A stretch of DNA of 64,000 bases from assembly GCF_015767635.1 (NCBI RefSeq), contig NZ_CP065230.1, positions 1,860,001 to 1,924,000 of the forward strand, given 5' to 3'. This DNA is from Halomonas sp. A40-4 (lineage in GTDB: Bacteria > Pseudomonadota > Gammaproteobacteria > Pseudomonadales > Halomonadaceae). Under the pieces are notes generated by a model, which was given only the letters and a program-made list of their open reading frames with translations, had not been told where the DNA came from and did not search any database. The position numbers and the translations under genes are program-made. Shown here in pieces: positions 3,117 through 17,346 of this stretch; position 1 is the stretch's first letter, and each line of letters begins with the position of its first letter.

Positions 3117-4796
3117 ATGACCAACGAGACCACCCCAGCGCCGAACTTCATTCGCAACCAAGTACGCGACGAAATCGAGGGCGGCCAGGTCACTAAGATT
3201 GTGACGCGCTTTCCCCCTGAGCCCAATGGCTTCCTGCACATCGGCCATGCAAAGTCGATCTGCCTGAACTTTGGGTTGGCGGAACAGATGGGTGGTGAGT
3301 GTCATTTACGCTTTGACGACACCAACCCTGCTAAAGAAGAGCAGGCCTATATTGACGCGATTAAAGAGGACGTCAGTTGGCTGGGCTTCCAGTGGGCAGG
3401 GGCGGTGCGTTTTGCTTCTGACTACTTCGACCAGCTATATGCCTGGGCGCAACACCTGATTCGTGAAGATAAAGCCTATGTTGATGACCTGACGCCTGAC
3501 GAGATTCGCGAATACCGCGGTACGCTAACCGAGCCAGGCCAGCCGAGTCCTTACCGTGAGCGTAGCGCGGAGGAGAACCTTGATCTTCTCGAGCGCATGC
3601 GCCTGGGAGAGTTTGCTGAGGGTGAAAAGGTGCTGCGTGCCAAAATTGACATGGCATCGCCCAATATCAACCTGCGTGACCCGATCCTGTATCGAATCCG
3701 ACATGCCAGCCACCATCAGACCGGCGATAAGTGGAAAATCTACCCGTCTTACGATTTTACCCATGGGCAGTCTGATGCCATCGAGGGGGTTACCCACTCG
3801 ATCTGCACGTTGGAGTTCGAAGACCATCGGCCGCTTTACGAGTGGTTCTTGAATCATCTTCCGGTACCCACCAAACCCCGTCAGATCGAGTTTGCCCGAT
3901 TGAACCTGAACTACACGCTGACCTCGAAGCGTAAGCTTAAAATGCTGGTGGACGAACAGATCGTCGACGGCTGGGATGACCCGCGTATGCCGACTATCTC
4001 TGGCATGCGTCGCCGCGGCTATACACCCGCCGCCATCCGCAAGTTCTGCGAGATGATTGGCGTTACCCGCGCAGATGGCGGCCTGGTGGATATCGCCATG
4101 CTGACCCACGCGATTCGTTCGGACCTTGAAGATAATGCGCCGCGTGCGATGTGTGTATTGAAGCCACTGAAAGTGGTGCTGACCAACGTGCCTCAAGATC
4201 ACGAGGAAGTATATGAAGTGGCAGGCCACCCGGCGCGTGACGACATGCCAGTGCGGAAAGTGCCATTAACCCGTGAGGTCTACATCGACCAGAATGATTT
4301 CATGGAAGATGCGCCGAAAAAATTCTTCCGCCTGGCGCCGGGCAAGGAAGTCCGCCTGCGCAATAGCTATGTTATCTGCTGCGATGAGGTCATCAAGGAT
4401 GACGCTGGGGAGGTAACCGAACTGCGCTGCTCGGTTGATTTTGACACCCTGGGCAAAAACCCCGAGGGTCGAAAAGTGAAAGGGGTCATCCATTGGGTCA
4501 GTGTCGACCATGGTATCCCGTTGGAAGTGCGTCTCTATGATAATTTGTTCATGGTGGAGCAGCCTGACCGGGACAAAGATGTCGACTTTCTGGACCATCT
4601 GAACCCCGAGTCACTGACGGTTTGCCACGCCATCGGCGAACCCAGCCTGGCGGATGCAGGACCTGAAGCGCGTTTCCAGTTCGAGCGTGTGGGTTATTTC
4701 TGTGCTGATCGGCATGTATCGACGCCAGACCATCTGGTGTTCAACCGTACTGTCGGGCTCAAGGACAGCTGGGCGAAAATCAAACAGAAAGGTTAA
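3117..4796 (+). CDS. glnS: Glutaminyl-tRNA synthetase
   Basis: A cytosolic class I aminoacyl-tRNA synthetase that charges tRNA-Gln. Its 559 residues match the family length. The nucleotide-binding HIGH motif is H41-I-G-H44 within P-P-E-P-N-G-F-L. The second signature is S270-K-R-K-L (a KMSKS variant typical of GlnS). The C-terminal anticodon-binding beta-barrels follow, with [10 protein letters not shown] as a recognisable stretch. cysS starts 11 bp after the stop, so the two synthetase genes are likely cotranscribed, an order shared with pseudomonads. Confidence 0.97.
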
Positions 4797-4807
4797 GGAA
4801 TCGGCAC

Positions 4808-6214
4808 ATGCATATTTACAATACGCTGACACGTCGCAAAGAGCCTTTTACCCCGCTGGTGGCGGGCAAGGTGAGTATGTATGTCTGCGGCATGACGGTG
4901 TATGACTATTGCCACCTTGGCCATGCCCGCGTCATGGTGGCGTTCGATGTCATTACGCGCTACTTGCGGGAGCGAGGTTATGAAGTCAATTATGTGCGCA
5001 ATATCACCGATATTGACGACAAGATCCTGAAGCGTGCCGATGAAAACAGCGAGACTATCTCGGCGCTGACCGAGCGCATGATTGCGGCGATGCACGAGGA
5101 CGAGGCGCGCCTCAGTGTGTTGCCGCCCAGCCATGAACCCAGGGCAACCGGGCATGTCGACGATATTATCGCCATGATCCAGACGTTGATTGAAAAAGGC
5201 TTTGCCTATCCGGCCGACAACGGCGATGTGTATTACCGCGTTCGCCGTTTCGCTGACTATGGCAAGCTGAATAATCGCCAGTTGGATGACATGCGCGCAG
5301 GCGCCCGCGTTGACGTAGACGTTCATAAAGAGGACCCGCTGGATTTCGTGCTGTGGAAGGCGGCCAAACCCAGCGAGGCCAGTTGGCCATCTCCCTGGGG
5401 AGATGGCCGCCCCGGTTGGCATATTGAATGCTCGGCAATGTCGACCTGCTGCCTGGGCGACACTTTCGATATTCATGGAGGTGGCCCGGACCTGACCTTC
5501 CCTCACCACGAAAATGAAATCGCACAGTCTGAAGCGGCCACCGGCAAGACCTATGTGAATACCTGGATGCACGCGGGGGCCGTCCGTGTTGACCAGGAAA
5601 AGATGTCGAAGTCGCTGGGAAACTTCTTCACAATTCGTGAAGTGCTGTCTGAGCACGACCCCGAAGTGGTCCGTTTTCTGCTGGTCGCCAGCCACTATCG
5701 AAGTGCGATTAACTACTCACTGGATTCGCTTTCAGAAGCCAGAAAGTCATTGACGCGGTTTTATACGGCGTTGGAGGGCGTGCCAGTTGATGCCGCCGCC
5801 GCGAGCGATGATCCGGCGGTTGCCCACTATCGCGAGCGTTTTACCACAGCCATGGACGATGACTTCAATACCCCCGAAGCGTTGGCGGTCTTGTTTGACC
5901 TGGCGCGTGATGTCAACCGTGCTAAATCCGATGCACCTGAAAAAGCCCTGGGTCTGGCCGTTGAATTGAAACAGCTGGGCGGCGTGCTGGGGCTTCTCCA
6001 GCAATCACCAGAGGCGTTTCTCAAAGGCTCGCAGCAAGACAATCTCGCGCTGAGTGAGTCGGCCATCAACGAAAAGATTGCCCAGCGTCAGGCTGCCAAA
6101 GCCAACAAGGATTTTGCTCAAGCCGACGCCATCCGCGACGAACTGGCGGCGCTGGGGATTATTCTTAAAGATTCCCGAGAAGGCACCACCTGGGTCGTCG
6201 AGTCTGCTTCTTAA
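4808..6214 (+). CDS. cysS: Cysteinyl-tRNA synthetase
   Basis: A class I synthetase charging tRNA-Cys; 468 residues, close to the E. coli enzyme. The HIGH motif is H36-L-G-H39, and C27 in Y-V-C-G-M-T is the first zinc ligand. The other ligands fall in W-H-I-E-C-S-A-M and H-H-E-N-E. The KMSKS loop is intact at residues 265-269. A weak AAGGAA site precedes the ATG. It is the second gene of a glnS-cysS unit. The 98-bp gap that follows carries a promoter for the ABC importer. Confidence 0.97.
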
Positions 6215-7238: not shown

Positions 7239-8456
7239 ATGGCGTTGCTGGATGCTTTGCCAAGTCCGCGTATGTCTTGGCGACAGTGGCGGCCCAATAG
7301 TGTTCTCGTCGTTCTCCTCAGCGTCCTATTGGTGGCCGTTTGGCTGTTCGATGTCGTCAGCGTCTCCCCCAACCGGATCGTCAGCGGCCAGGGAGCTGGT
7401 CTGGTTGAAGCCGTGGGCTGGTTGGGGGCATTGCTGGTCAGCGGTGTCATTCTCACCCTGGTGCTGCTGTCTCTCCAGCCTAGTCGACAGAACTATCAGG
7501 TTGCCCTGGTAGGTGTCTGTCTATTACTTCTCCTGATGCCGTTTGGTTTGATGGTGGCCAGCGACCGGCTGGTCAGTAGCGATGCGCCACCAGCTCGACT
7601 GAATATGGGGATGGCCTATTGGCTGATGCTATCTCTATTATTCCTGTGCTGGATCGAGCTGCGCTTGCGTTTAACGCTGCCACGGCGTTGGACTGTCCTG
7701 ATGCTTCTGGGCGTCGCGATCGTCTGGTGGCTGTGTGCCATGTGGGCGCTTGAGGCGTTGGCGTTGGGGCAGGAGTTTCGCGCTCGGGACGATGAATTCT
7801 GGCGCGCCTTGCGACAACATATATCGCTGGTGAGTGTCGCCGTGGCTATCAGTATTGGATTGGGTCTATCCCTTGCCATGCTGATGCGCCGCTATGCAAA
7901 CTTTCAGAAAGTCGCCTTTGGGGTGCTCAATTTCCTGCAGACCATTCCGAGTATCGCCCTGTTCGGTTTAATGCTGGGCCCCCTTGCTTGGCTGGCGGCT
8001 CAGTGGCCGCTGTTGTCTCAACTGGGAGTCAGTGGTATTGGCTGGGCACCCGCTTTGCTGGCGCTGGTCGCTTACAGTCTACTGCCGATGGTGCGAAACA
8101 CCTACATTGCCCTTGAGCAAGTCAGTCCTGAAACATTGGAAGCGGCACGCGGGATGGGGATGCGCAATAGCCAGCGCTTCTGGCAGGTACGTTTGCCACT
8201 GGCCTTGCCGGTGCTGATTGAGGGTATAAGAATCACATCGGTCCAAGCTATTGGCCTTACGGCGGTTGCTGCCTTGATTGGCGCGGGCGGTCTGGGGGCT
8301 TTTATTTTTCAGGGATTGGGGCAGGCAGCGATGGATATGGTGTTACTGGGCGCATTGCCCATTCTGATACTGGCGCTCATAGCAGACGCCGGACTGGGGG
8401 CCTTGTCTGATATCCTCCGGCCGAAAAATACCGTGCCGCCTGGAGAAGCCCAATGA
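7239..8456 (+). CDS. yehY: YehY-type ABC permease (osmoprotectant importer)
   Basis: An inner-membrane permease of the OpuC/Yeh importer, 405 residues and about nine hydrophobic segments. The C-terminal ~200 residues are the conserved BPD_transp_1 core with the EAA loop (L-E-A-A-R-G-M-G-M) that contacts the ATPase. The N-terminal ~170 residues are the extra hydrophobic extension typical of YehY and absent from YehW. It starts 2 bp after osmF stops and overlaps yehX by 4 nt (ATGA), which points to translational coupling. Confidence 0.85.
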   Translation: MALLDALPSPRMSWRQWRPNSVLVVLLSVLLVAVWLFDVVSVSPNRIVSGQGAGLVEAVGWLGALLVSGVILTLVLLSLQPSRQNYQVALVGVCLLLLLMPFGLMVASDRLVSSDAPPARLNMGMAYWLMLSLLFLCWIELRLRLTLPRRWTVLMLLGVAIVWWLCAMWALEALALGQEFRARDDEFWRALRQHISLVSVAVAISIGLGLSLAMLMRRYANFQKVAFGVLNFLQTIPSIALFGLMLGPLAWLAAQWPLLSQLGVSGIGWAPALLALVAYSLLPMVRNTYIALEQVSPETLEAARGMGMRNSQRFWQVRLPLALPVLIEGIRITSVQAIGLTAVAALIGAGGLGAFIFQGLGQAAMDMVLLGALPILILALIADAGLGALSDILRPKNTVPPGEAQ

Positions 8457-9418
8457 TCGAACTCGCCCACGTTTCCAAACGTTTTGGCGACGCTGTCGCA
8501 GTGGATGACATTTCGCTGCACATCCCAAAAGGCAAGTTTTGTGCGCTTGTGGGTACGTCGGGCTGTGGTAAATCAACCACTTTACGGATGATTAACCGTC
8601 TGATCGAGCACAGCGAGGGTGACATCATATTGGATGGTCAACCGATTGCCGCCTATGACCCGGTCAAGTTGCGGCGTCGCATCGGCTATGTGATTCAGCA
8701 CACAGGATTATTTCCCCACTGGACGGTGGCTCGCAATATTGGCCTCGTTCCACGCCTGCTTAAATGGTCCGCCGCAGAGGTTCAGGCAAAAGTTGACGAG
8801 CTGATGAACCTGCTGGGTTTGCCGAAAGATGAATTCGCCCATAAATACCCTCATCAGCTGTCGGGCGGGCAGGCGCAGCGTGTCGGGGTGGCGCGGGCGC
8901 TGGCTGCTGACCCTGATATTTTGCTGATGGATGAACCCTTTGGCGCACTGGATCCGATTACCCGTGAAAAGCTTCAGGATGAACTTGCCAGGCTCCAGGC
9001 AAAGATGCATAAAACGGTGGTGTTTGTTACCCATGACATGGATGAAGCGCTAAAGCTGGCGGATCATCTGGTCGTGATGCGTGAAGGCCATATTGTTCAG
9101 CAGGGCACGCCACTGGCACTGCTTCAGCATCCGCAGGATCCGTTTGTGGAATCGTTGCTCGGCGGACTTGAGCGCGGGCTGAAGCAGGCGGCATTGACCC
9201 GGGTAAAGGACCATATGGCCCCGATGGGACCAACATTACCTGCTCAATCGAGAATTCCCGCGGCGTTTTCCCTGCGCCAGGGGCTTTCCATGATGCTGCG
9301 TGACCATACGGATCGCCTTACCGTCGTGGACCAACACGACGTGCCGGTAGGCGAGCTCACACTGCGCAAAATCGTCAAGGAAGCCCAACCGGAACAAGGA
9401 AAAGTGCGTGAGTCATAA
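8453..9418 (+). CDS. yehX: YehX-type ABC ATPase
   Basis: The ATPase that powers the importer. Walker A is G34-T-S-G-C-G-K-S-T42, the signature is L-S-G-G-Q-A-Q-R near residue 140, Walker B is L-L-M-D-E-P, and the switch His is in V-T-H-D-M-D-E-A. After the nucleotide-binding domain a ~90-residue tail carries one weak CBS-like segment (L-T-V-V-D-Q-H-D-V-P-V-G). OpuCA/ProV proteins have two full CBS repeats used for ionic-strength sensing, so here the sensor module looks reduced. It overlaps yehY by 4 nt and yehW by 11 nt. Confidence 0.87.
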   Translation: MIELAHVSKRFGDAVAVDDISLHIPKGKFCALVGTSGCGKSTTLRMINRLIEHSEGDIILDGQPIAAYDPVKLRRRIGYVIQHTGLFPHWTVARNIGLVPRLLKWSAAEVQAKVDELMNLLGLPKDEFAHKYPHQLSGGQAQRVGVARALAADPDILLMDEPFGALDPITREKLQDELARLQAKMHKTVVFVTHDMDEALKLADHLVVMREGHIVQQGTPLALLQHPQDPFVESLLGGLERGLKQAALTRVKDHMAPMGPTLPAQSRIPAAFSLRQGLSMMLRDHTDRLTVVDQHDVPVGELTLRKIVKEAQPEQGKVRES

Positions 9419-10184
9419 TGCCTTGGGCCGTTCGCTGACGGCGCGCGGCGCTAACCCGGTGATGTGGCCGGCTATCTGGCTGGTGCTTTTAATGGTGTGT
9501 GTCTGGGGATTTCCTTACGCTGACGGTGTGCTACGCGTGATAGAGCCGGATGCCCGTCAGGTTGTCTATCAACGCGCCAGCTTAGCGTCGCTGTTGGTGC
9601 AGCACCTCCTTGTGGTCAGCGCGGCCGCCGTGATTACCACGGCGAGTGGCGTGTTGGCGGCGATTGTCGTGACAAGGGAATGGGGACGTAATTTTTTACC
9701 TCTGGTGGCGCAAGTCGCCTCACTGGGTCAGACCTTTCCACCGGTTGCCGTGCTGGCGCTGGCGGTACCGGCATTAGGTTTTGGCACACTGCCGATCATT
9801 GTTGCGCTGGTGCTGTATGGCGCGCTACCCATCGTTCGAAATACACTAGGCGGCATACAGGGCGTTGATAAAGAGGTTAAAAGCGCCTCCGCCGCGATGG
9901 GCATGACGGGCTGGCAAACCCTTTGTCAGGTGGAGTTGCCCCTGGCGGCCCCAGTCATACTGGCCGGCATTCGGACCTCCATCACCATCAATATCTCGAC
10001 CGCCGCGATCGGCGCCACCGTCGGTGCGAGCAATCTGGGTGACCCCATCATTGCCGGTATTGTGAACGGAAACATGGCTTATATCATTCAGGGGGCGCTG
10101 ACCATCGCGTTGCTGGCGTTGACCGTCGATAGCCTGTTCGAGCGTCTTCAGGAACGGCTACGTTCGCGCTTTTATACCTCTTAA
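9408..10184 (+). CDS. yehW: YehW-type ABC permease (osmoprotectant importer)
   Basis: The second permease of the heterodimeric channel, 258 residues and about six transmembrane helices, with the EAA loop S-A-S-A-A-M-G-M-T. It uses a GTG start inside the end of yehX, giving an 11-nt overlap. ATG codons further in would remove the first membrane helix. The order binding protein, large permease, ATPase, small permease is that of E. coli yehZYXW. It is the last gene of the unit; 131 bp separate it from the dehydrogenase genes. Confidence 0.85.
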   Translation: MSHNALGRSLTARGANPVMWPAIWLVLLMVCVWGFPYADGVLRVIEPDARQVVYQRASLASLLVQHLLVVSAAAVITTASGVLAAIVVTREWGRNFLPLVAQVASLGQTFPPVAVLALAVPALGFGTLPIIVALVLYGALPIVRNTLGGIQGVDKEVKSASAAMGMTGWQTLCQVELPLAAPVILAGIRTSITINISTAAIGATVGASNLGDPIIAGIVNGNMAYIIQGALTIALLALTVDSLFERLQERLRSRFYTS

Positions 10185-10315: not shown

Positions 10316-11521
10316 ATGATGACACAGCATGCACACCAGCCTGTCTTCCTGACAGGCGATGAATTTTCGATTCCCACCTTCAGTTTGCTGAGCCCCGAGG
10401 GCGAACTCTACAGCGAAGCTGATGCCCCGACGCTTGAAAAAGACCATGCCCGGCGCATTTATCATGCGATGCTGGCAACGCGTATTCTCGATGAGCGTAT
10501 GTTGGCGGCCCAGCGTCAGGGACGGCTGTCTTTCTACATGCAATGCACCGGCGAAGAAGCCGCCGTGGTAGGCGCCACTGCGGCGCTCGACGATGCCGAC
10601 ATGATCATGGCGCAGTATCGCGAGCAGGGTGCCTTGATGTACCGCGGGTTTTCCATTGATGAATTCATGAATCAGCTATTCGGCAACGAGCTGGACTATG
10701 GCAAAGGCCGCCAGATGCCGATTCACTATGGGTCGCGAAAGCTCCACTACATGACCATTTCCTCGCCGCTTGCTACCCAGATTCCCCAGGCGACAGGCTA
10801 TGCCTATGGTCAGAAAATGGCGGGCGATGGGCACTGTACCCTAACGTTCTTTGGTGAAGGGGCGGCTTCTGAAGGCGACTTTCATGCGGCGCTGAATATG
10901 GCCTCGGTCCACCAGGTCCCGGTGATCTTTTTCTGCCGCAACAATGGCTACGCGATTTCGACGCCGGCGGTAGAGCAGTTTGCAGCCGACGGTATCGCCC
11001 CCCGGGCTTTTGGTTATCACATGCATGTGATCCGTGTGGATGGCAACGACATACTGGCGGTCTATGAAGCCACGCGACAGGCTCGTGAAATCGCCGTTGA
11101 ACGCAATCAACCCGTGCTGATAGAAGCGATGACGTATCGGCTGGCCGCGCATTCCTCTTCCGATGACCCGTCGGGTTATCGTTCCAAAAATGAGGAAGAG
11201 GCCTGGCGTATCAAAGACCCACTGTTGCGCATGCAGAAGTGGCTGTTGGCCAAAGGCTGGTGGAGCGAAGACGAAGAGGCCAGCGAGCAGGAACGTCTGC
11301 GTCGTGAAGTGTTGGACACCATGAAGCGCGCCGAAAAGCGCTCGCCTCCGCCCCTGGACTCCCTGATCAGCGATGTCTATGCGGATGTCACCCCGGCGTT
11401 GCAGCAGCAGTTCGACCAGCTCAAGCAGCATATCCGCCGCTACCCGGAGGCTTACCCGCGTGGGGCCAAGTCATTGGATCTGAGTGTGAGCACCGATGCC
11501 GACTCCCAGGGGGGCGAATAA
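10316..11521 (+). CDS. bkdA1: Branched-chain 2-oxoacid dehydrogenase E1 alpha, mitochondrial type
   Basis: The thiamine-diphosphate decarboxylase subunit that acts on 2-oxoacids from Val, Leu and Ile. The 401-residue protein carries the TPP motif G-E-G-A-A-S-E-G-D ... [13 protein letters not shown]. It also has stretches I recognise from animal [27 protein letters not shown], and [13 protein letters not shown]. It is more like the mitochondrial protein than Pseudomonas BkdA1. The loop H279-S-S-S-D-D matches the mammalian H-S-T-S-D-D loop that is regulated by phosphorylation. AAGGA lies 5 nt before this ATG and 8 nt before a second ATG (10319). It is first in a three-gene complex operon; no E3 gene is nearby. 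Substrate range is inferred. Confidence 0.88.
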
Positions 11522-11522
11522 A

Positions 11523-12500
11523 ATGCCGACAATGAATATGCTTCAGGCAATTAATAACGCCCTCGACATTGCCATGGCGGAAGACGAAAAAGTCATCTGT
11601 TTTGGTGAAGATGTGGGGATTTTTGGCGGCGTCTTTCGTGCCACCAGCCACCTGCAGGAAAAATATGGCAAGGCCCGCTGTTTTAATACCCCTTTGGTAG
11701 AGCAGGGTATCATTGGCTTTGCCAATGGCTTGGCTGCTCAGGGATCGGTTCCAGTCGCTGAAATTCAGTTTGCCGATTATATTTTTCCCGCCTTCGATCA
11801 AATCGTTAACGAAACCGCCAAATTCCGCTATCGCTCGGGCGATTTGTTTAACGTCGGCGGCCTGACCATTCGGACGCCTTACGGCGGTGGGATTTCCGGT
11901 GGCCTTTATCACTCACAATCCCCCGAGGCCTACTTCACCCATACACCTGGGTTAAAGGTTGTGGTGCCCCGCAACCCCTATCAGGCCAAGGGGCTACTAC
12001 TGGCGTCCATTCGTGACCCGGATCCGGTGCTGTTTCTAGAACCCAAGCGGCTTTACCGCGCGTCAGTCGGCGAGGTACCGGAAGACGATTACCAGCTTCC
12101 CATCGGCGAGGCCGAGATCACCAAGGAAGGCAGCGATATTACCCTGGTCGGTTGGGGCGCGCAGATGGAAGTGATTGGCAAAGCGGTGGAGTTGGCAGAG
12201 GAGCAGGGCATTAACTGCGAAGTCATCGACCTGCGCTCGCTATTGCCCTGGGATGCAGATACGGTCGCCGAGTCCGTTCTCAAGACAGGTCGGTTAGTGG
12301 TCAGCCATGAAGCGCCGTTGACCGGTGGTTTCGCCGGTGAAATTGCCGCGACGATTCAGGCGCGTTGTTTTCTCTACCTGGAATCGCCCATTGCACGGGT
12401 GACCGGGCTGGATACGCCTTTCCCGCTGGTGCTGGAAAAAGAGTATCTACCCGACCACCTGAAAATCTTTGAAGCGATTCGTGAAAGCGTTAATTTTTGA
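11523..12500 (+). CDS. bkdA2: Branched-chain 2-oxoacid dehydrogenase E1 beta
   Basis: The partner of E1 alpha in the alpha2beta2 decarboxylase; 325 residues with the transketolase pyrimidine-binding domain first ([14 protein letters not shown]) and the transketolase C-terminal domain after about residue 195 ([12 protein letters not shown]). I place the start at the ATG at 11523, which abuts the E1 alpha stop (11519-11521). The in-frame codon at 11496 would add nine residues not expected in the family. Coupling with E1 alpha is likely. Confidence 0.9.
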
Positions 12501-12518: not shown

Positions 12519-13763
12519 ATGAGCGATTTTATGTTGCCGGATATCGGCGAAGGTATCGTCGAGTGTGAAGTGGTCGAATGGCGCGTCGCTGAAGGCGACC
12601 GGATTGAAGAAGATCAGCCTATTGTCGAGGTCATGACCGACAAGGCGCTGGTGGAAATCACCGCCCATGAGGCAGGCGTGGTCACTAAACTGTATGTCGA
12701 TCAGGGGCAAATTGCCAAGGTCCATGCCCCCCTTTATGCCTACCAGGCTGAGGGTGAAGATGCTGATGAGGCAAAGGTATTGAATGATAGCTCAGAAGCG
12801 TCGTCGTCCAGTCAGCCCCCGGCTGCTGAAAAACAGGCGGAAACTCAGCCGTCACCCTCAACCCCATCGGTTGTTACTCAGGGGAAAGTGCCTGCCAGCC
12901 CCGCCGTCAGACGACTGGTCAGAGAGCATCAGTTGCAGCTCACGGATATCGCGGGAAGCGGCAAAGACGGCCGAGTCCTCAAAGAAGACGTCCTGGCGCA
13001 TCTTGATCAACCTGCAGAGACCGTTTCGATGGCTTCTTCATCACGAGGGAGTGGTGAAGTGAGCCGGGTCGAGCCACTGCGTGGTATGCGGGCGATGATG
13101 GCCAAGCGCATGGTGGAATCGGCCAGCACGATTCCGCATTTTCATTACGGTGAGGAAATCGACGCGACGCAGCTTCTCGCCATGCGGGAACGCTTGAAAC
13201 CGGTAGCAGAAGCCCAGGGGGAGCGCTTGACGCTGATGTCTTTCTTCATGAAAGCGATGGCATTGGCGATTGCCCAAACACCGATTATCAATGCCCAGCT
13301 CAATCAAGCAGGCGACGAGCTGCGCTACTACTCTCATTGCAATATCGGCATGGCCGTGGACAGCAAGGCTGGCTTGCTGGTGCCCAATGTCAAAGGTGTC
13401 GAGCGATTGACGCTCCTGGAGATTGCCAGGGAAGTTGGTCGTTTAACCCATGCGGCCAGAGAAGGGCGGGTTGATCAGGCGGATCTCAAGGGTGGCACCA
13501 TCAGCATTTCCAACATTGGGGCGCTGGGCGGCACCTACGCGGCGCCGATCATTAATGCCCCGGAAGCCGCCATCGTGGCGATTGGCAAAACCCAGTGGCT
13601 GCCGCGTTTTGATGATCAGGGCGAGGTCCAGCGGCGTGCGATCATGACGATTACCTGGGCGGGGGATCACCGTTTTATCGACGGCGGTACGATCGCGCGC
13701 TTCTGTAATACCTGGAAGGGCTTTCTGGAAGCCCCAGATAGCATGTTGTTGCATCTGGGATAA
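12519..13763 (+). CDS. bkdB: Branched-chain 2-oxoacid dehydrogenase E2 (lipoamide acyltransferase)
   Basis: The core acyltransferase of the complex. Domains in order: one lipoyl domain (residues 1-76, lipoylated Lys42 in M-T-D-K-A), an Ala/Pro/Ser-rich linker (~85-125), a peripheral-subunit-binding domain (~127-165, P-A-S-P-A-V-R-R-L), a second linker, and the catalytic domain from ~185 ending with the H-R-F-I-D-G-G active-site motif. At 414 residues it has a single lipoyl domain, as in BCKDH rather than Gram-negative PDH. An AGAGGAG ribosome site precedes the ATG. It is followed after 12 bp by a protein kinase gene. The E3 subunit must come from elsewhere in the genome. Confidence 0.9.
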   Translation: MSDFMLPDIGEGIVECEVVEWRVAEGDRIEEDQPIVEVMTDKALVEITAHEAGVVTKLYVDQGQIAKVHAPLYAYQAEGEDADEAKVLNDSSEASSSSQPPAAEKQAETQPSPSTPSVVTQGKVPASPAVRRLVREHQLQLTDIAGSGKDGRVLKEDVLAHLDQPAETVSMASSSRGSGEVSRVEPLRGMRAMMAKRMVESASTIPHFHYGEEIDATQLLAMRERLKPVAEAQGERLTLMSFFMKAMALAIAQTPIINAQLNQAGDELRYYSHCNIGMAVDSKAGLLVPNVKGVERLTLLEIAREVGRLTHAAREGRVDQADLKGGTISISNIGALGGTYAAPIINAPEAAIVAIGKTQWLPRFDDQGEVQRRAIMTITWAGDHRFIDGGTIARFCNTWKGFLEAPDSMLLHLG

Positions 13764-13775
13764 CGCAGGCACCCC

Positions 13776-15620
13776 ATGGCTCAGGCACCCCTTCAGCAGT
13801 TTTATATACCCGAGGAGCAGTCGGTATACCTGCTGAGCCACCACGATGCCCGCAAGCTCAAGGACTGGGTGGCGCTGTGCCAGGAGCAGCTCTCCCAGTT
13901 GGGCTACCGGGACATCGAACTGATCGGTAAGGGTGCCTACGGTTTCGTTTTTGCCGGTAGTGCGCCGATCCAGGGAGCGACGGCGCACTACGTTTTCAAG
14001 TTCTCGCGCATTACCCTGCCTATTCACCTCCAGGAACGCCTCGAAGAAGAGGCGTTCATGCTGGAGCAGGTGTCGCACCCGCTCATTCCCAGGTTGATTA
14101 CCTACCAGCGCGCGCGGGGGCAATCGATTCTGGTCATGGAGCGCGCGCCCGGCTTGAATCTTGAACAGGTATCGCTCAAGGAGGGGCGCCTGTCACCCCG
14201 TCTGATCGTCCGCATCGCCGCTCAGTTAGCCGATATCCTCATGGCGTTACGCAGAGAGTCCGGACCCAAGGCGCGACCTGTCGTCCACGGTGATATCAAA
14301 CCCTCCAATCTGGTCTTTGACCCGACTGACGAGTCCATCGCCTTGATCGATTGGGGCTCATCCGTCTTTGCCCAGCTCGATGCCCAATTGCAGTTCGTTG
14401 GTGCCAATGTGATGGAGTTGATGTCGGATAACCTGCAACAGACCAATGCGCGACTGGGCGATGTCTATTTTATCGGCGAGGAACAGCTCAATGGAGCACT
14501 TTCGTCGCCACGCTTTGACGAGCAGGGCGTGGCGGGCACCTTGTATGCCTTGGCGTCTGCCCAGTCGTGCCGCTTTGGTCATCGCGCGATTCCTGCCAGT
14601 TCGCTGGGGCTTCCCATGGAGTTTGCCCGAACGCTGGACGCTATGCTCGACCCAGATCCTCAAATACGCCGCAAAGCGGGTGACTATTTTTTGCGCGCCA
14701 TGCCCCGGATGGCCCGCGTGGTGATGCTGGACCTGCCGGGTAGCGTTCAATCACCGCTGGTACCGGTATGGGGGCGTCCGGCTGAACAGGAAATTGACAC
14801 CGTGGTGTACAGTTCTCGCAAGGCGTTTCTGCGTGAAGCCAATGCCCCTGAAACCCTCAACGACGTTAACGATGTGCAGCTGGATCGCTATTACAAACAG
14901 TTCATGCAGGGGATGGGAGAAACTGAAAAAGCCTTTCTGGCCTCGGTGAGCCGTCTGGGCAAGTACCCGGTTGTAGGCGGTCTGGCGGTACGCTGGGAGC
15001 GCGACGGGGTCTATATCGATTCGTCGTTGAACCTGCACGACCCGGCATTGAAGCCTGCGTTTATCGAAGCGGTCAATAACATGGTGCACCTGGCGCGGGC
15101 GATCCATCGCCAAGGGGTATTCAAGAGCTGTCTGTTTAACGCCCGTCAAACGTTGCATCTGGAGCGGGGTTCAGCGTCAGAGGCTTTTGATTGCGAACCC
15201 GGCATGGCGATCAGCTATGAAATGAGCGCCGTTCCGGAACTTGAGGACCGTACTCGTCAGCATAGCTACTTCGAGGATGGTCCCGATCCCGAAGAGCTAT
15301 TAGCATTGCCAGAATCGATCATGCAGGTGCTCAAACAGCTTAACGAGATTCATCACACCGGCATGATCATTTTTGAAGCGCTGCCCAAGCACCTCAAGAT
15401 TCACAGCTACTATCGTCTTCTCGACCCTTCCAGGGAGGGCGAATTTCGTGCGTTGCTGGTGAAAATGCTCGCATCAGTCAGCCAAATTGAAGGTCTGGGG
15501 GTCTCTGGATTCATGAAAATGCCTTACAAAGATACCCGCTACTTTACGCACCTTGAAAGCCAGCCCGAACGATACTACCCGCGTGACCCCCGGGACTATA
15601 TCAGGAAACATGGCCAATAA
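13776..15620 (+). CDS. Hanks-type Ser/Thr protein kinase with unknown C-terminal domain
   Basis: A soluble 614-residue protein. Residues ~45-300 form a protein-kinase fold: Gly-rich loop G-K-G-A-Y-G-F-V-F-A-G, candidate VAIK lysine in Y-V-F-K-F-S, an acidic helix (E-E-E-A-F-M) for the salt bridge, catalytic loop H171-G-D173-I-K-P-S-N-L, and metal-binding D192-W-G in place of D-F-G. The Arg of H-R-D is replaced by Gly, so it is a non-RD kinase. Residues ~330-614 are not a domain I recognise (no PASTA, no membrane helix). An in-frame ATG lies 12 bp after bkdB with a weak AGG site, so it is probably the fourth gene of the BCKDH operon. Substrate unknown; control of the dehydrogenase is a hypothesis. 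Confidence 0.75.
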   Translation: MAQAPLQQFYIPEEQSVYLLSHHDARKLKDWVALCQEQLSQLGYRDIELIGKGAYGFVFAGSAPIQGATAHYVFKFSRITLPIHLQERLEEEAFMLEQVSHPLIPRLITYQRARGQSILVMERAPGLNLEQVSLKEGRLSPRLIVRIAAQLADILMALRRESGPKARPVVHGDIKPSNLVFDPTDESIALIDWGSSVFAQLDAQLQFVGANVMELMSDNLQQTNARLGDVYFIGEEQLNGALSSPRFDEQGVAGTLYALASAQSCRFGHRAIPASSLGLPMEFARTLDAMLDPDPQIRRKAGDYFLRAMPRMARVVMLDLPGSVQSPLVPVWGRPAEQEIDTVVYSSRKAFLREANAPETLNDVNDVQLDRYYKQFMQGMGETEKAFLASVSRLGKYPVVGGLAVRWERDGVYIDSSLNLHDPALKPAFIEAVNNMVHLARAIHRQGVFKSCLFNARQTLHLERGSASEAFDCEPGMAISYEMSAVPELEDRTRQHSYFEDGPDPEELLALPESIMQVLKQLNEIHHTGMIIFEALPKHLKIHSYYRLLDPSREGEFRALLVKMLASVSQIEGLGVSGFMKMPYKDTRYFTHLESQPERYYPRDPRDYIRKHGQ

Positions 15621-15642: not shown

Positions 15643-17346
15643 TTACCGGGAGAATTCCCGCCATGCCGCGTAAGTACTGAGAAAGACGCGACCGGTGAGC
15701 GCCTCAAGAAAGTCACTTTTCTTGAGCTGATCCATCACAGGGCCTTTTACCTCTGAAAGGTGCAGTTTGACACTTGCGTCCTTGAGGCGGGCATTGATGG
15801 CGTCGAGGCTTTCCAGTGCTGATGCATCAATCAGGTTAACGGCTGAGCAAATCAATACCACGTGTTCCAGTTCGGGACGGCTGGCCACCAGGTTATACAG
15901 CGTATCTTCCAGATAGCGCGCATTGGCGAAGTACAGGCTTTCATCAATTCGCAGTAGTGCGACACGGCTGACAGTCTCGACATCGTGACGGGTAATGTTA
16001 CGGAAGTGTTCGGTGCCAGGAACGCGCCCGACAAGCGCGCTGTGCGGGCGACTGGTACGATATAGATAAAGTGCAATGGAAAGGGTCACGCCCCCCAGAA
16101 TACCCGCCTCGATTCCCTCGACAAGCGTCAGGATGATGGTAAGCGCCATGGCTGAGAAATCACTGCGGGAATAGCGCCACGTCTGGCGCAGCATGGGGAT
16201 ATCTACCAGGGTCAGGATAGACACGGTAATCGTCGCTGCCAGGGTGGCAATTGGCAGGTAGTAAAGCCATCCCGTAAACGCCATCGTCACCAGCGCAATG
16301 CCCAGCGCGGCAAAAGCACCGGCAGCTGGCGTCTGAGCGCCCGCATCAAAGTTAATCACCGTGCGTGACAGGCCGCCGGTCACCGGCATGCCATGGGTAA
16401 CGGCCGCGGCCAGGTTGGTTGCGCCCAGGCCAATCAATTCCTGATTGGGGGAAATGCGCTGGCGCCGTTTGGCCGCCAGCATCTGCCCCATCGACACCGA
16501 CTCGACAAAACCGACCAGGCTGATGAGCAAGGCCGGAATGAATAGCGCTTTCCATAACGAGGCATCAGCCCACGGCAGGCTGAAAGCGGGAAGCCCAGAC
16601 GGCACGTCGCCGACGACATTGACGCCCTGATCAGCAAGCCCCCAGTACCAGGTGGCAAGGGTGGTAGCAACCACGGCGATCACCGGCCCTGCCTTGGCGA
16701 CCAGGTCGGCAGCACTATTGGGTAGCCCCAGGCGCTTGAGTGTCGATTTCCCATGTCGACGAAGCCATACCAAAAACACCAGTGTGCCAAGCCCCAAAAG
16801 GCAGGTGGGCACGTTGAGGGCATCCAAGTTGGGGATGAGCGTCATCAAACGCTCCACCAGAGTGAAACCGCTGCTTTCGATCCCCAACAGACTGCCAAGC
16901 TGACTGACCGCAATCAGAATACCTGAGGCCGTTAGAAAACCTGAAATGACCGGGTGGCTCAAGAAATTGCTAAAAAAGCCCATTTTCAGCAGCCCCATGG
17001 CGACCAGCATGCCCCCCGAAAGCATCGACAGCACCAAGGCGGCTTCCAGGTAGGCATCAGATCCTGGAGAGGCAACCGATGAAAGGGCAGCCCCGGTCAT
17101 TAGCGCAATAATCGCCACAGGGCCCACAGCCAGGGTACGGCTGGTACCAAACAGGGTATATACCAGCTGCGGTAAAATACTGGCGTAAAGGCCCACCACG
17201 GCCGGAAGTCCTGCGAGAAGGGCATAGGCAAGCGACTGCGGTATGACCATGACGGTGACAATCAAGCCGGCAAGTAAATCTGCTCCCAGTAACCGCTTAT
17301 GGTAGTAAGGCAGCCAGGACAGAATGGGCAAGTAGCGCTTTAGCAT
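15643..17346 (-). CDS. SulP-family anion transporter with STAS domain
   Basis: An inner-membrane SLC26/SulP carrier of 567 residues. About 10-12 hydrophobic helices cover residues ~20-430, including the sulfate-transporter signature region near the N-terminus (P-Q-S-L-A-Y-A-L-L-A-G-L-P). A cytoplasmic STAS domain (~440-560, with L-I-D-A-S-A-L-E-S-L) closes the protein. Members carry sulfate, bicarbonate, C4-dicarboxylates or other anions, and the substrate cannot be read from sequence. There is no carbonic anhydrase beside it, which weakens a BicA-type bicarbonate role. It converges with the kinase gene, the stops being 22 bp apart. Confidence 0.85.
   Translation of the reverse strand: MLKRYLPILSWLPYYHKRLLGADLLAGLIVTVMVIPQSLAYALLAGLPAVVGLYASILPQLVYTLFGTSRTLAVGPVAIIALMTGAALSSVASPGSDAYLEAALVLSMLSGGMLVAMGLLKMGFFSNFLSHPVISGFLTASGILIAVSQLGSLLGIESSGFTLVERLMTLIPNLDALNVPTCLLGLGTLVFLVWLRRHGKSTLKRLGLPNSAADLVAKAGPVIAVVATTLATWYWGLADQGVNVVGDVPSGLPAFSLPWADASLWKALFIPALLISLVGFVESVSMGQMLAAKRRQRISPNQELIGLGATNLAAAVTHGMPVTGGLSRTVINFDAGAQTPAAGAFAALGIALVTMAFTGWLYYLPIATLAATITVSILTLVDIPMLRQTWRYSRSDFSAMALTIILTLVEGIEAGILGGVTLSIALYLYRTSRPHSALVGRVPGTEHFRNITRHDVETVSRVALLRIDESLYFANARYLEDTLYNLVASRPELEHVVLICSAVNLIDASALESLDAINARLKDASVKLHLSEVKGPVMDQLKKSDFLEALTGRVFLSTYAAWREFSR

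Follow-up and report, generated by a model that had tools for sequence, protein, structure and literature searches.

Does a bacterium switch its branched-chain keto acid dehydrogenase complex (BCKDH) on and off with a kinase of its own? The question is raised by a window of 64,000 nucleotides from Halomonas sp. A40-4 (contig NZ_CP065230.1, positions 1,860,001 to 1,924,000), in which a gene for a 614-residue protein kinase directly follows the genes for such a complex. In mitochondria, BCKDH is under covalent control, exerted by a kinase with a GHKL fold, BDK (BCKDK). BDK phosphorylates Ser292 of E1α, which inactivates the complex (PMC8872256), and phosphorylation of Ser293 and Ser303 has been reported with the same outcome (PMC8329528). 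An earlier note on the sequence had proposed that the bacterial complex has a Hanks-type kinase as its own regulator. We found no description of a bacterial BCKDH kinase in the open PubMed Central literature; one candidate precedent (PMC7362463) was set aside, as it uses human BCKDH.

In the window, the open reading frames and their Pfam matches give the gene order E1α, E1β, E2, kinase, all on the forward strand. The gene for E1α (10316–11521, 401 aa; PF00676, E 3.8e-99) overlaps that for E1β (11496–12500, 334 aa; PF02779 and PF02780) by 26 bases, and 18 bases separate the latter from the gene for the E2 acyltransferase (12519–13763, 414 aa). Pfam thereby recognizes the partner complex as E1α and E1β plus an E2 with one lipoyl domain, an E3-binding domain, and a catalytic core (PF00364, PF02817, and PF00198). 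The kinase gene (13776–15620, with an ATG start) begins after a spacer of 12 bp (13764–13775) that contains no terminator-like site, just as the earlier note had described, and the 4 genes would be co-transcribed. Downstream of the kinase, a convergent gene encodes a SulP-type transporter by Pfam (15643–17346). The genome carries a single copy of the kinase gene and a single E1α of this kind. Directly upstream of the operon (7239–10184), Pfam identifies an ABC transporter, consisting of a permease, an ATPase with a weak CBS match, and a second permease; close relatives of this transporter lie upstream in most Halomonas-like loci and not in Marinobacter loci.

Hanks kinases are characterized by a Gly-rich loop, the lysine of a VxK motif, a glutamate in helix αC, and the motifs H-x-D-x-K-x-x-N and D-x-G. 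The window protein matched Pkinase (PF00069) over residues 44–204 with an E-value of 1e-15 (58.3 bits against a cut-off of 31.7), and carries HGDIKPSN at residues 171–178 (14286–14309) and DWG at residues 192–194 (14349–14357), which bears out the H-G-D and D-W-G motifs named before. The protein was aligned with 66 homologues, 52–90% identical to it; this set goes back to 160 ORFs, reduced to 74 at less than 90% identity, of which 7 were omitted and one (L001) was swapped for the window protein. Pkinase was matched in all 67 aligned kinases, and G51, G53, K75, E92, H171, G172, D173, I174, K175, P176, S177, N178, D192, W193, and G194 are invariant in 67/67. As the catalytic residues are invariant, the window protein is expected from its sequence to be an active kinase. 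An AlphaFold2 model of the full protein (mean pLDDT 83, pTM 0.87) shows a kinase fold at residues 35–318 (13878–14729), and the nearest fold to this domain was that of PknB (5u94; Z 23.6, rmsd 2.4, 241 aligned residues in VIA-align 2). With a modeled kinase fold, a significant Pkinase match, and the full list of motifs, tests of sequence and fold place the protein among the Hanks kinases, and transfer of phosphate to serine or threonine residues of a protein is predicted.

The Pfam family APH was also matched in 67/67 aligned sequences, which would suit a kinase acting on small molecules, or else an inactive scaffold, in place of a protein kinase. The window protein matches Pkinase better than APH, however (1e-15 versus 6.3e-10), its catalytic residues are invariant, and the VIA-align matches listed for the model are protein kinases or kinase-containing enzymes. 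HGDIKPSN also has the lysine in HxDxKxxN that is typical of protein kinases. We therefore consider this explanation very improbable and the protein a protein kinase. Nor is it a BCKDK of the GHKL type by Pfam: no BCDHK_Adom3 or GHKL ATPase domain was matched in the window protein at E-values up to 1, and neither is among the families listed to E 0.01 for the 67 kinases. A search of the window's own genome with PF10436 (GHKL kinase) also gave no match, but the control queries were equally silent. Pfam matched neither a membrane part nor a PASTA domain in the kinase. When defense systems were considered, only kinase domain matches were found among the 25 of 30 PADLOC matches listed, and the metabolic linkage described below disfavors a role in defense.

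The remainder of the protein forms a second domain (residues ~370–600; 14883–15575). Folded alone, residues 326–614 gave an AlphaFold2 model (pLDDT 81, pTM 0.78) with two β-β-α-β-β units. A comparison of the two halves with hhalign was weak (E 0.0012, probability 19%), so a duplication would rest chiefly on the predicted structure. The two domains of the protein are conserved to the same degree, with a mean share of the commonest residue of 0.75 in the C-terminal part and 0.76 in the kinase domain. Nothing convincing was found for the C-terminal domain in Pfam or PHROGs, a profile search of the PDB returned no confident match, Foldseek against the PDB reached a best E-value of 0.19, and the best VIA-align match, EsaG (Z 3.9, rmsd 4.6, 83 aligned residues), was not convincing. 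We make no claim that the fold is new.

The E1α subunit indicates which kind of BCKDH the kinase accompanies. Among solved structures, it scored 395 bits to 1dtw, 238 to 1um9, 229 to 1qs0, and 225 to 1w85; we take 1dtw to be human BCKDHA, 1qs0 to be BkdA1 of P. putida, and 1w85 to be a pyruvate dehydrogenase. Given 395 bits to 1dtw versus 229 to 1qs0, the E1α of the window is of the mitochondrial type by sequence. The best NCBIfam matches of E1α were models for pyruvate dehydrogenase, all of them under their cut-offs, and we assign the complex as a BCKDH from its homology to BCKDHA and from genes of the type used in leucine and valine catabolism near some relatives. These include a gene for HMG-CoA lyase near one relative (L144), and genes resembling those for acyl-CoA dehydrogenases, called from matches under the NCBIfam cut-offs, near several. 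Such an acyl-CoA dehydrogenase-like gene lies downstream of the kinase and on the same strand in several relatives (L161, 7773–8924; L157, 6660–7853; L108, 12557–13729), genome G395 being among those with such a gene.

A loop of 17 residues in E1α (11135–11185) contains Ser280 (11153–11155) and Ser290 (11183–11185), which align with the 2 serines of the 1dtw loop that we take to be the BCKDK sites, their exact position within that loop being our assumption. Ser280 is a serine in all 96 distinct E1α sequences of the type that accompanies the kinase, and in 19/19 of the other type. Ser290 is a serine in 83/96 of the former versus 4/19 of the latter, and is neither serine nor threonine in 12/96 of the former. 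As Ser280 is equally invariant where the kinase is absent, structure alone accounts for its conservation; it fits as an acceptor without being proven as the site, and we rejected its conservation as proof. An acceptor serine is thus available in the loop by sequence, but its conservation does not discriminate between the 2 types. Ser150 and Ser185 of E1α and Ser51 of E1β do separate kinase-type from other-type sequences, and may be simple clade markers.

As one observation that would speak against its proposal, the earlier note had named a kinase gene found mostly apart from bkd genes in relatives, and this is not what we found. We examined the best 80 of at least 424 relatives among genome contigs, which are the closest relatives and come from Halomonas, Vreelandella, Billgrantia, Bisbaumannia, Litchfieldella, Salinicola, Marinobacter, Motiliproteus, Amphritea, Neptunomonas, Balneatrix, and some metagenome-assembled genomes. 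The order E1α, E1β, E2, kinase recurs among these loci. With the kinase start taken as the position aligned with the ATG of the window, the distance from E2 to the kinase could be measured in 78 of the 80, contig edges preventing it in L097 and L119. All 78 have the 2 genes on one strand and in the order seen in the window, at most 100 bp apart in 68 and at most 300 bp in 75 (median 22 bp). The 3 others have gaps of 860 bp (L104), 2.1 kb (L083), and 7.6 kb (L073). In the last, from Halomonas ramblicola, the gap of ~7.6 kb (kinase at 10001) holds a gene for S-adenosylmethionine synthetase (4463–5626).

Neighboring genes were clustered for 102 of 104 loci (L097 and L161 were skipped). E2 was found near the kinase in 94 of the 102, and E1α and E1β in 92 each, while among the 22 largest clusters the other common neighbors were confined to Halomonas-like loci, antisense frames of bkd genes aside. 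Relatives of the kinase on plasmids amounted to 15 records, all partial and 23–31% identical. The sequences of the kinase and E1α diverge together (Spearman 0.94, with 0.89–0.91 for other pairs), but this is expected from shared ancestry, and we set the correlation aside as uninformative.

As the linked loci belong to close relatives, whole-genome samples were used for more distant ones. In these, co-occurrence was counted by hand from match tables; the samples share genomes and are therefore not additive, and the species in them are not independent. The family sample (201 genomes; kinase at E below 1e-60, E1α at E up to 1e-80) had 164 genomes with the kinase and 163 with E1α: 163 had both, 37 had neither, none had E1α only, and a single one had the kinase only. 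That genome (G131) has a contig that starts inside the E1β gene and continues with E2 and the kinase, in a 96%-complete assembly without E1α. Weak kinase matches in 10 family genomes (E 9e-5 to 7e-4) were dropped as other kinases. For the order sample (293 genomes), E1α was counted at 58% identity or more, there being no match between 44% and 58% at E-values up to 1e-60, and weak kinase matches of at most 37% identity were left out. Here, 36 genomes had the kinase and 36 had E1α, with both in 35, the kinase only in G395, and E1α only in G337. Both were present in 5 of the 369 genomes of the class sample (E1α at E up to 1e-90), in which G840 has a kinase fragment at a contig end. Lastly, 20 of the 130 genomes of the phylum sample had an E1α match, and the kinase was present in 7/7 at 59% identity or more and in 0/13 at 43% or less.

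The BCKDH of the Pseudomonas type belongs to the same enzyme family and has homologous E1α, E1β, and E2 subunits, but its E1α is only 39–44% identical to that of the window. The kinase was absent from all 23 distinct genomes of the order and phylum samples that carry only this type, including the 12 genomes of the order sample with only a 40–44% identical E1α. Taken together, across the samples searched, the kinase is present or absent with the mitochondrial-type E1α in a nearly one-to-one match, which strongly supports a genomic link between kinase and BCKDH.

Such a link could in principle be a leftover of history, with the kinase serving an unrelated function as a passenger of the operon. 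The link drawn here is a genomic one, the kinase-bearing genomes of the samples searched all belong to the class of the window's genome, in which one old linkage could persist, and 3 of the 78 loci have 0.9–7.6 kb between E2 and the kinase. Against this stands the match in presence and absence across genera. Eight genera contain both species with the 2 genes and species with neither, as would be expected if the pair had been gained or lost together more than once; the sole mismatch within them is G337, and the negatives of one (g3) are poorer assemblies, 77–95% complete. Moreover, 5 genomes of one family have both, even though E1α, E1β, and E2 lie on another contig or ~50–70 kb from the kinase. 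Co-occurrence without adjacency is not what a passenger would predict. The kinase is also more conserved than E2, with mean pairwise distances of 0.31 and 0.40, respectively, over 96 genomes. We consider a passenger improbable, and a functional link of some kind between the kinase and BCKDH probable. What the earlier note called the complex's own kinase is upheld as a pairing, by linkage in many genera, nearly one-to-one co-occurrence, and the 5 unlinked pairs; the phosphorylation and control of E1 that the term implies stay predictions.

Some cases run counter to this pattern. G337 has the operon with no kinase match, and its E1α has glycine at the position of Ser290, in this one case. G395 has kept the kinase together with only a 42%-identical E1β, and no E1α match at 1e-60. 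An acyl-CoA dehydrogenase-like gene is the neighbor of the kinase both there and at the contig end of G840. In Shewanella baltica OS155, an E1α of 60% identity is encoded on plasmid pSbal01 together with E1β and E2; nadA follows, with no adjacent kinase, and no Shewanella plasmid was among the plasmid matches of the kinase. If Shewanella species were wholly without the kinase, the one-to-one rule would fail outside the groups sampled. On this plasmid (L213, NC_009035.1 20235–39395), genes of a housekeeping type (efp, seqA, pgm, nadA, and gap) lie beside those for E1α, E1β, and E2, and its E2 has 2 lipoyl domains versus one in the window. An oddity of another kind was observed in G105 (L164, G105:C8:88000-106000), in which one strand has 3–8% T per 600-base bin from the end of E1β, at ~11400, to at least 15300. 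There, the kinase frame contains stops, and the kinase and E2 are only 31% and 26% identical, while E1α and E1β are normal. This tract is either a base-calling artifact or the result of decay or extreme hypermutation; by its E-values, the genome was kept as a positive in the counts.

A functional link leaves room for a target other than E1α. The kinase could phosphorylate E2, E1β, or some further enzyme or regulator in the breakdown of branched-chain amino acids, or it could use the complex as sensor and scaffold and not as a substrate. Linkage and co-occurrence would look the same, the acyl-CoA dehydrogenase-like neighbor in G395 and G840 suggests that a role in the pathway may be kept without E1α, and Ser51 of E1β is a serine in 95/95 distinct kinase-type sequences and serine or threonine in 0/18 others, although it may only mark the clade. 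However, nearly all sampled genomes without the mitochondrial-type E1α lack the kinase too, which points to the complex itself. We regard another target as possible, and as less likely than a direct switch on E1α. That the 614-residue protein is a dedicated bacterial BCKDH kinase that switches off E1α is, with substrate, site, and effect all inferred, a reading to which we give about an even chance.

Under the reading of a dedicated E1α kinase, the kinase domain (residues 35–318) would phosphorylate the active-site loop of E1α, most likely at Ser280, the presumed equivalent of the inactivating serine of human BCKDHA. Phosphorylation of the loop would keep the lipoyl domain of E2 from docking, and the complex would be shut off, presumably during a shortage of branched-chain keto acids. 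The C-terminal domain may serve for docking on the complex or as a ligand sensor. A phosphatase is presumed as well, and none was found conserved near the kinase among the 102 clustered loci. The only PP2C_2 match in the window's own genome (L212, G000:C1:2928500-2929060) lies in a frame of 582 aa encoding a PP2C-kinase fusion (Pkinase E 5.7e-37). As this frame is ~1 Mb away, beside a tetrapyrrole methylase gene, there is no reason to pair it with this kinase, and it was rejected as the partner.

The nearest systems in function are mitochondrial BCKDK and actinobacterial PknG-OdhI. As in mitochondria, a kinase is tied, here by genomic association, to a BCKDH with a mitochondrial-type E1α in which both loop serines are present; unlike the GHKL-type BDK, the window kinase is of the Hanks type, with its substrate and effect predicted. 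OdhI (GarA) is an inhibitor protein with an FHA domain and a kinase substrate, and PknG carries extra domains, which Pfam did not match in the window protein. Phosphorylation by PknG has been reported to end the inhibition of 2-oxoglutarate dehydrogenase by OdhI (PMC9769921). The likeness lies in the control of a 2-oxoacid dehydrogenase by a bacterial Ser/Thr kinase, a control that is predicted for the window kinase, but PknG acts through a separate inhibitor protein and on a different complex. With PknB-type kinases, the protein shares the modeled fold of its kinase domain; in place of PASTA domains, which were not matched, it has a C-terminal domain of ~230 aa without a confident match.

The nearly constant company of the kinase and an animal-like BCKDH suggests that bacteria evolved a switch of their own, unrelated to that of animals. 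In its full form, this idea holds that gammaproteobacteria with a mitochondrial-type BCKDH, independently of animals, evolved a dedicated kinase of unrelated fold that acts on the same loop serine of E1α as an OFF switch, with an undescribed C-terminal domain for docking or sensing, and to this we give somewhat less than an even chance. If true, a switch for BCKDH would have been invented at least twice, with an unrelated kinase acting on the same type of E1. Ser280 of E1α gives a clear prediction for the bench, and the operon would provide a simple system for studying how kinases dock on 2-oxoacid dehydrogenases. It would also point to a role for the kinase subfamily, which 164 of the 201 genomes of the family carry.
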